Assembly: GCF_007995055.1 (NCBI RefSeq)
Contig: NZ_VOQQ01000001.1
Location: 1,719,001-1,783,000, forward strand
Direction of reading: 5' to 3'
Length of the DNA: 64,000 nucleotides
Origin: Sphingosinicella ginsenosidimutans
GTDB lineage: Bacteria > Pseudomonadota > Alphaproteobacteria > Sphingomonadales > Sphingomonadaceae
The notes under the pieces were generated by a model. The model had not been told where the DNA came from, ran no database searches, and saw nothing but the letters and a program-made list of their open reading frames with translations. Position numbers and translations under genes: made by a program. Positions 3,236 to 5,412 of the stretch are shown in pieces (within the stretch, counting starts at the first letter, position 1; each line of letters starts with the position of its first letter).

Positions 3236-4035
3236 CCGGCCTGATGACGGGAAAGCGGGGACTCATCATGGGGCTCGCCAATGACCGCTCGCTCGCCTGG
3301 GGGATTGCGAAGCAGCTGCACGAGCAGGGCGCGGAGCTGGCGTTCAGCTACCAGGGGGAGGCGCTGCAGAAGCGCGTCGCGCCGCTCGCCGCGGACCTTG
3401 GTTCGGATTTCCTGATCGACTGCGACGTTTCGGACATGGCGGCGCTCGATGCGGCGTTCGAAACGCTGAAGGCGCGCTGGCCGACCATCGATTTCGTCGT
3501 CCATGCGATCGGCTTTTCCGACAAGAACGAGCTTCGTGGCCTCTATGTCGATACCAGCCTCGATAATTTCCTGCTGACGATGAACATCTCCGCCTACAGC
3601 TTCGTCGCGGTGGCGCAGCGGGCGCGGGCGATGATGCCGGAGGGCGGGAGCCTGCTCACCCTCACCTATTACGGCGCCGAGAAGGTGATCCCGCATTATA
3701 ACGTGATGGGCGTCGCCAAGGCGGCGCTCGAAACCAGCGTCAAATATCTCGCGATGGACCTTGGGCCGGGGAAGATCCGCGTCAACGCGATCTCGGCCGG
3801 GCCGATCAAGACGCTTGCCGCGAGCGGGATCGGCGATTTCCGCTACATCATGAAGTGGAACGAATATAATTCGCCGCTGCGCCGCAACGTCACGATCGAG
3901 GATGTCGGCGGCGCGGGCCTCTATCTGCTCTCGGACCTTTCGGCGGGCGTCACCGGCGAGATCCACCATGTCGATGCCGGTTATAACGTGATCGGCATGA
4001 AGGCCGAGGACGCACCCGACATCACGGTCGCGTGA
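3232..4035 (+). CDS. fabI: Enoyl-[acyl-carrier-protein] reductase (NADH), FabI type
   Basis: 267 aa. It catalyses the last reduction of each fatty-acid elongation cycle (trans-2-enoyl-ACP to acyl-ACP). Seen here: the N-terminal nucleotide-binding segment GLANDRSLAWGIA, the HAIGFSDKNELRG region, and the Y-x6-K catalytic pair in YNVMGVAK near residues 158-165, all characteristic of FabI rather than ordinary short-chain dehydrogenases. AGGAGG sits 6 nt before the ATG. The start overlaps the YihY stop, and its own stop overlaps the GTG of the aroC-like gene, so the three genes form a tightly packed operon. Confidence 0.97.
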   Translation: MTGLMTGKRGLIMGLANDRSLAWGIAKQLHEQGAELAFSYQGEALQKRVAPLAADLGSDFLIDCDVSDMAALDAAFETLKARWPTIDFVVHAIGFSDKNELRGLYVDTSLDNFLLTMNISAYSFVAVAQRARAMMPEGGSLLTLTYYGAEKVIPHYNVMGVAKAALETSVKYLAMDLGPGKIRVNAISAGPIKTLAASGIGDFRYIMKWNEYNSPLRRNVTIEDVGGAGLYLLSDLSAGVTGEIHHVDAGYNVIGMKAEDAPDITVA

Positions 4036-4664
4036 GCGCGGGTCCGCACGGCCATGTCCTGCGCTGGTCGCTCTGGGCCGGCGAGGAGGGGGGCGGCGCG
4101 CTGATCGACGGCTGTCCGCCGGGCATCGGGCTTGACGAGGAGGCGGTCGGCGCGCGGCTCCTGTCGGGCCTGTTCGAGGGGCGCACCACCGGGACTCCGA
4201 TCGCGCTGGTGGCCGGCGATCGCGATCGCGCGTTGCTGGCCGCCGGCGCGGTGGCGGGAAAGGTGATCGACGGCGTCGCGATCAGCACCGTGATCGACGG
4301 CGACGACGTGCGCTGTGTCGGCGAAGGCGTTCCGGTCGGCTGGGGCGCGCCGGTCTATGCCCGTCTCGACGCCGAACTTGCCCGCGCGATCGGCGAGCTC
4401 GACGGGGTGCGCCGGATCGAGATCGGCGACGGCTTCGCGGCGGCGCGGTTGACCGGGGCCGCGAATGCCGATGCGATGCGCGCCGGGCCGGAATTCCGCG
4501 CCAACCATGCCGGCGGCATTCTCGGCGGGATTTCCAGCGGCCAACCGCTGCTCGTTCGCGTCGGCTTCGACGCGCCGGGCGAGCATTCGGCGGCGCTCGT
4601 CGCGGCGTCGGTCGCGCTGGTCCTCGCCGATCAGAAACTGCTGCACCGCGCCCAATGCGGCTGA
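4032..4664 (+). CDS. Chorismate synthase-like protein lacking all active-site segments (pseudoenzyme or decayed aroC)
   Basis: 210 aa against about 360 for chorismate synthase. Recognisable AroC blocks remain in the right order: IDGCPPGIGL, LLSGLFEGRTTGTPIAL, AAGAVAGK, GVPVGWGAPVYARLDAELA, RIEIGDGFAA, NHAGGILGGISSGQ and VLADQKLLHRAQCG. Missing are the N-terminal GESHG motif, the RRRPGTSR-type arginine segment, the RPGHADYT...RDYRGGGRSSARETA block and the late GRHDPCVGIRAVP block, which together bind FMN and substrate and hold the catalytic histidines. The reading frame is uninterrupted. GTG at 4032 overlaps the fabI stop (GTGA). Activity as chorismate synthase is very unlikely; it may be a scaffold or a decaying gene with the true aroC elsewhere. 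Confidence 0.8.
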   Translation: MSAGPHGHVLRWSLWAGEEGGGALIDGCPPGIGLDEEAVGARLLSGLFEGRTTGTPIALVAGDRDRALLAAGAVAGKVIDGVAISTVIDGDDVRCVGEGVPVGWGAPVYARLDAELARAIGELDGVRRIEIGDGFAAARLTGAANADAMRAGPEFRANHAGGILGGISSGQPLLVRVGFDAPGEHSAALVAASVALVLADQKLLHRAQCG

Positions 4665-4665
4665 A

Positions 4666-5412
4666 CTAGGCGCGTTTCAGACCGATCAGCGTGCCCTTGG
4701 TGCCGCGCGTGTCCAGAGTGAAATCAAACTCCGGGTGGAGCTGGCGCCAGCGCCGGGCGATCATTCGTTCCCCGGGCCGGGCCCCATCGTCCAGCATCAC
4801 CGCCCCGCCCGGCGCGATCCGCCCCAGCAGCGTTTCGGCGGCGCCGCGGGTGAACGGGTGAATTGTCCATGGCGGCCCGTCGACGACGAGCAGATCGATC
4901 CCGCAGGGAAGCGGCCCGTGATCGTACCACAGGCCCGGCCACCCATGCGGCGACGGCGCCAGCGGCACGGCGCGCAGATCGGCCGCGAGAGCGTGATCGG
5001 CGAGCCAGCGCCCCGTCGCGTCGACGAAATCGGCATGCTGGTCGAAGCTCGTCAGCATGCCGCCGCCGGCAAGATCGAGCGCGCGGGCGAGGACGAGCGT
5101 CGAGGCGCCCATCCCGAATTCGACGACAACCTTCGGTCGGCGTTCCAGAACATGATCGACCAGCAAGGTGAGGAGGCCGACATCGGCCTTCCAGCTGCCG
5201 AGATGGGGAAGTGCGTCCTGTGGCAGATCGAGCCGCGCCAGCAGGTCGCGCTTGTCGGCGCGCCGGCCGCCGCGAAGGCTCTTGGCCAGCCACGGCCACT
5301 GGATCGCGCCGAACGCCGCGACCGCGAGCCGATCGGACAATCCGCGCACATAGTCGCCGGTGATGATCGCGTCGGCACGGGCAAGTATGCCGGTGGCCTC
5401 GCGGGTCGTCAT
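4666..5412 (-). CDS. Class I SAM-dependent methyltransferase-like protein
   Basis: 248 aa. A Rossmann methyltransferase core is visible: [18 protein letters not shown] (SAM-binding motif I, about residues 94-111), an acidic residue after the next strand (SFDQH), and LLVVDGPP followed by a late LDDGARPGE motif. Substrate unknown. The start overlaps the purA stop by 4 nt, so it is probably translated as the second gene of a purA operon. It is convergent with the aroC-like gene, with 1 nt between stops. Confident for the fold, not for the substrate. Confidence 0.75.

Follow-up and report, generated by a model that had tools for sequence, protein, structure and literature searches.

A pair of reciprocally degenerate AroC paralogues proposed to form one heteromeric chorismate synthase in Sphingosinicella ginsenosidimutans

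What can be the role of a chorismate synthase (AroC) homologue that consists of 210 residues and has lost both catalytic histidine motifs? The question was raised by a gene, here designated aroC_S (product S), that directly follows fabI in the window, a 64,000-nucleotide stretch of the Sphingosinicella ginsenosidimutans genome (contig NZ_VOQQ01000001.1, positions 1,719,001 to 1,783,000 of the forward strand). We consider it likely, with a probability of roughly three in four, that aroC_S and a second gene of the same genome, aroC_L (product L), are reciprocally degenerate paralogues whose products jointly form one heteromeric chorismate synthase. The direct basis for this reading was provided by both sequences, their complementary losses, the purifying selection on one block of S, the predicted folds and the lack of a detectable third AroC.

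The derivation of S from AroC, proposed in the initial annotation, was borne out by a match to PF01264 (E 1.3e-29, residues 92-179), which at 103.4 bits passed the Pfam cut-off of 27, by matches to chorismate synthases in the PDB down to 4.5e-27, and by weaker collinear blocks on either side of the PF01264 match. The gene was confirmed as a single open frame (4032-4664, + strand), whose GTG start shares the sequence GTGA with the stop codon of fabI. Compared with the 352-residue AroC of a congener (G005), S was found to have internal gap runs of 2, 22, 42, 47 and 29 residues, through which GESHG, the RRRPG segment, RPGHAD...SARETA and GRHDPCV are deleted or altered, as first described. As a stand-alone enzyme S failed the catalytic motif test (GESHG, RPGHAD, SARET and GRHDP altered or deleted), and its NF003793 score of 111 bits fell below the cut-off of 321. 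The claim that every active-site segment had been excised was not upheld, since the NHAGGILGGISSGQ stretch, listed there as scaffold, belongs to a strongly conserved loop block (GDGF...NHAGGILGGISSGQ) that is the best-conserved part of S. Structure prediction for S, suggested as a check on whether a shortened barrel is closed, returned a complete and confident chorismate synthase fold without the catalytic loops; this fold is a beta-alpha-beta sandwich and not a barrel.

The source genome (G000; 3.04 Mb, two contigs, 99.82% complete) was found to contain two aroC loci only, and no third AroC was detected in it. The second copy for which a search had been advised thus exists, at C1:372289-373221 on the minus strand, but its product of 310 residues is not full length; an intact second aroC was rejected, as no locus was found other than this one, which is also incomplete. 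L retains GESHG, RRRPG, RPGHAD, RGGGRSSARETA, FKPTSS and GRHDPC, and so has all of the motifs (GESHG, RPGHAD, SARET, KPTSS and GRHDP) expected of a stand-alone enzyme. What L lacks is most of GWGAPVYAKLD (a 9-residue gap) and the GDGF...NHAGGIxGGISxGQ excursion (a 38-residue gap), and it accordingly failed the test for the GWGAPxY and NHAGGIxGGISxG block. A tail ending in SPHPALSPERRGT stands where LLHRAQCG would be expected. L was nevertheless predicted to adopt the chorismate synthase fold and passed both curated cut-offs (349.4 bits against 321 for NF003793 and 311.5 against 212.2 for TIGR00033); automatic annotation would therefore miss its gap. The gene lies between trpG (stop-start TGATG) and aroB (stop-start ATGA), with trpE upstream. 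Chorismate is presumably both made and used by the organism, because aroA, prephenate dehydratase and a second chorismate-binding enzyme were found in the genome. The last codons of aroC_L cross a C-rich/G-rich inverted repeat (CCCCTC...GAGGAGGGGG; L034:4290-4340, minus strand), which supplies the new C-terminal tail and the aroB overlap. No close second copy of this repeat was seen in the window, L034 or L037.

The losses of the two proteins were compared in an alignment of S, L and 134 other distinct AroC proteins, from which eight streamlined forms were set aside to leave 126 full-length sequences. Among the 91 columns identical in all 126, S had lost 55 residues and L 17, with none lost by both, so that S and L taken together contain the full set of 91 strictly invariant residues. 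At 97% conservation (148 columns) S had lost 83 and L 34, with 3 shared where 19 were expected; full-length AroC proteins lose on average 0.8 of these columns, and at most 9. At 90% (196 columns) the corresponding numbers were 111, 52 and 8. Random placement of the loss runs of L gave no more than three shared losses in 5e-5 of trials, and one of 147 circular shifts was as good. The complementarity was evident in both directions in the 97% set. Where L has lost a residue, S still has it in 31 of the 33 columns that S covers, and where L has kept one, in 34 of 61 (P 1.2e-4), while L keeps 80 of 82 lost in S and 34 of 45 kept in S (P 1.9e-4). Over their common columns the two are 45-49% identical, and their genes lie 1.35 Mb apart.

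Selection on aroC_S was assessed by codon position. In the kept block (64 codons), S was 85, 83 and 59% identical to its relatives at positions 1, 2 and 3, compared with 87, 91 and 59% among the relatives themselves, and amino acid identity was 76% for S and 82% among relatives. For the remaining 146 codons these amino acid values were 49% and 83%. Of the nucleotide sites conserved in the genus, 1/46 at position 1 and 5/48 at position 2 were changed in the kept block of S. Neutral simulations matched to third-position divergence gave a block identity of 25-38% against the 78-81% observed, although the sequences used for comparison were themselves under constraint as they evolved, which the model leaves out. 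Judged from these comparisons, the kept block is under near-normal purifying selection across species-scale divergence and diverges as a working homologue would, which speaks against its plain decay. The rest of S appears remodelled or relaxed, and the evidence for selection is limited to the block. The ordered decay initially offered as one possibility is not supported for the block; the rest of S may be under relaxed constraint. The open frame by itself says little in such GC-rich DNA: no stop codon arose in 13-71% of the simulated neutral runs, and an antisense 224-residue open reading frame (window 3981-4655, - strand), probably a GC-rich coding shadow, overlaps aroC_S.

S and L each appear to keep just the parts that the other has lost, and either one alone is therefore unlikely to work. 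In the proposed enzyme, L would bring the flavin mononucleotide (FMN)/5-enolpyruvylshikimate-3-phosphate (EPSP) site, with GESHG, RRRPG, RPGHAD, SARET, KPTSS and GRHDP. S, trimmed of its own catalytic loops, would still have the fold and occupy its position in the oligomer, and its GWGAP and NHAGGIxGGISxG loops would reach the site of L across the subunit interface. If the NHAGG loop does reach the FMN site of its neighbor, both sites of a homodimer are composite, and a heterodimer could shed one of them whole, losing the catalytic loops from one chain and the donated loop from the other. The pattern of loss expected from this is the pattern observed in S and L. Of the two sites of the L:S dimer, one would then be complete and the other would be the one removed by evolution, and the stoichiometry would be L2S2 if the tetramer of the family is retained. 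Chorismate synthase is described as a dimer of dimers (PMC7144000), and coevolving residue pairs are reported to be apposed across its interfaces (PMC2651771). From the combined data we infer physical assembly of L with S, action of the loop in trans, activity and this stoichiometry. It also seems probable, if with less assurance than for the heteromer itself, that a central-metabolic flavoenzyme that is normally homomeric has here become an obligate heteromer with one FMN/EPSP site per L:S dimer and the other deleted from both chains, so that the deletions map the parts acting in cis and those acting across the interface. The FMN contacts listed by UniProt/HAMAP (SAR, INA, a Gly of GGIS, KPTSS and the Arg of RHD) would be distributed accordingly: L keeps all but the Gly, and this Gly is retained in S, where LDG stands in place of INA. 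In 1UM0, the FMN site reportedly receives a minor contribution from a neighboring subunit.

Several points weigh against this heteromer. The pair was seen in one genome and did not recur in the other species searched. The action of the NHAGG loop across the interface in known enzymes is assumed, and the predicted folds cover S and L as single chains only. Placement of gap runs alone was a weak test (0.034 for no overlap), and the gap runs of S and L in fact coincide in 2 columns, both within a variable loop. Beyond the kept block, changes at the conserved sites of S are spread about equally over codon positions 1, 2 and 3 (28/90, 29/110 and 4/14), the pattern expected of relaxed constraint.

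This last observation, together with the large number of losses in S, would suit a decaying pseudogene at an ancestral fabI locus, with an L that functions on its own despite its internal deletion; L does hold all of the catalytic motifs and scores above the NCBIfam cut-off, and shortened single AroC proteins occur in relatives. It was considered quite improbable. The shortened proteins still contain the GGIxGGIS core, 17 of the 91 strictly invariant residues are gone from L with every one present in S, and the block absent from L stands in S at 76% amino acid identity, against 25-38% in the neutral simulation. Somewhat less remote, though still unlikely, is that L is active by itself and S persists as a pseudoenzyme with a different task, either regulation or stabilization of L or an unrelated function. 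The confident fold predicted for S would allow this, and dead paralogues that boost a partner have been described, for example in trypanosomatid deoxyhypusine synthase (PMC3663545). A stabilizing role alone leaves unexplained why S conserves the loop block missing from L and not the core or the interface. A retained pseudoenzyme, one of the two options offered in the initial annotation, is partly right: S has lost both histidine motifs and yet has one block under purifying selection. S was treated there alone, whereas the central fact is the reciprocal gap of L. Finally, an assembly or sequencing artefact at one or both loci was deemed highly improbable. The data are from a single assembly, but one of near-complete content in two contigs, in which the copies stand far apart in coherent operons, are well diverged and carry several separate in-frame losses.

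The locus was also compared among relatives. In 25 other genomes of the genus, motif matching showed aroC following fabI in 11 and preceding aroB in 12, with 2 having neither arrangement. Adjacency of aroC and fabI extends to other families of the order (e.g., L004, L010, L013 and L018). None of these 25 genomes had the short form, which it had been proposed to look for in relatives, and no second copy was found in them by the searches made. At the fabI locus of relatives, also suggested for comparison, no aroC remnant followed fabI in the six aroB-linked relatives seen (G025, G008, G005, G012, G013 and G004). The simplest story is that a copy arose at aroB and the fabI copy was lost in most lineages, mutual dependence having arisen in the source lineage before either copy could go; the trees leave the order of events undecided.

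Among the matches listed, no complementary pair was recognized in 397 genomes of the family or 389 of the class (source included in each). In the family 13 genomes and then 4 were re-examined, and in the class 6; the others were judged by best E-value and match count alone, G032, G353, G411 and G427 giving weak or broken matches. Two-piece cases on re-examination looked mostly like contig ends by their coordinates, with sequences read for G309 and a few others. In a wider contig scan at least 562 loci were confirmed; the 80 of them that were analyzed all carry a full-length AroC with both GESHG and GRHDPC, and no comparable pair was recognized among these 80. L208 and L213 (G429:C54:2024-2841) carry an aroC without profile positions 143-203 in a fragmented metagenome-assembled genome (66% complete); its halves, 6 nucleotides apart, lie in frames that differ in length, which probably reflects misassembly. 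Streamlined single-copy AroC proteins of 303-312 residues, which is remarkably short for the enzyme, were seen in two congeners (G006 and G018; L035:5278-6207 and L036:5563-6501) and in four genomes of genus g98 (G192, G318, G243 and G431; L154, L155, L157 and L159). All catalytic motifs are present in them, the NHAGG loop and the hairpin before GRHDP are trimmed, and they appear to have more than one origin.

Features of the aroC_S locus (window positions)
Feature	Position	Strand	Basis
fabI, enoyl-acyl carrier protein reductase, 267 residues	3232..4035	+	NCBIfam NF006019, E 1.8e-148
aroC_S, 210-residue reduced chorismate synthase paralogue, proposed accessory subunit	4032..4664	+	
GESHG site, reads AGEEG in aroC_S	4077..4091	+	alignment
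aroC_S junction, 22 residues gone (DIQP...RRRPG...QRR)	4139..4140	+	alignment
aroC_S junction, 42 residues gone (RSKDY...RPGHAD...SARETA)	4229..4230	+	alignment
aroC_S junction, 47 residues gone (EIGGD...AGSSLGA)	4298..4299	+	alignment
GWGAPVYARLD, present in aroC_S, mostly absent from aroC_L	4338..4370	+	alignment
GDGF...NHAGGILGGISSGQ loop block, present in aroC_S, absent from aroC_L	4425..4544	+	
aroC_S junction, 29 residues gone (TSSIL...GRHDPCV)	4577..4578	+	alignment
LLHRAQCG C-terminus, present in aroC_S, replaced in aroC_L	4638..4661	+	

Between aroC_S and purA, at window 4666-5412 (- strand), lies a gene for a 248-residue protein that occupies the same place in several relatives; no NCBIfam model matched it, and by eye it is methyltransferase-like.

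A homomer can become an obligate heteromer when its gene is duplicated and the copies undergo reciprocal loss, a textbook route. Short-form HisG with HisZ (ATP phosphoribosyltransferase) is likewise an amino acid biosynthesis enzyme that needs an inactive paralogous partner; HisZ, however, comes from another family and is widespread, whereas S and L are both AroC and the pair was seen once. A split of whole active-site loops this clean between the two chains of an essential enzyme is, to our knowledge, rare. The trypanosomatid deoxyhypusine synthase is also an essential enzyme with an impaired and a dead paralogous subunit. It is unrelated to AroC, and in the account given in PMC3663545 the dead paralogue activates, with no reciprocal loss of whole loops described. 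Homomeric AroC (PF01264, TIGR00033; PDB 1UM0, 1QXO and 2O12) has the same fold as the S and L chains but is described with all motifs on one chain, in homotetramers (PMC7144000, PMC2651771), in contrast to their division over two chains here. The streamlined AroC proteins, from the same genus or family as the source, share with the pair the trimming of part of the NHAGG loop and of the hairpin before GRHDP, but are single chains that keep a GGIxGGI or GIDGGI core. No report of a heteromeric or pseudoenzyme chorismate synthase was found among the titles and abstract openings retrieved in searches of the open-access literature. For annotation, L is a warning, as a protein without a family-invariant loop passes a curated cut-off as a complete AroC. 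If the proposed heteromer is true, chorismate synthase would have been dissected by nature in the S/L pair, which would mark the segment that another chain can provide and the smallest fold that a subunit needs.
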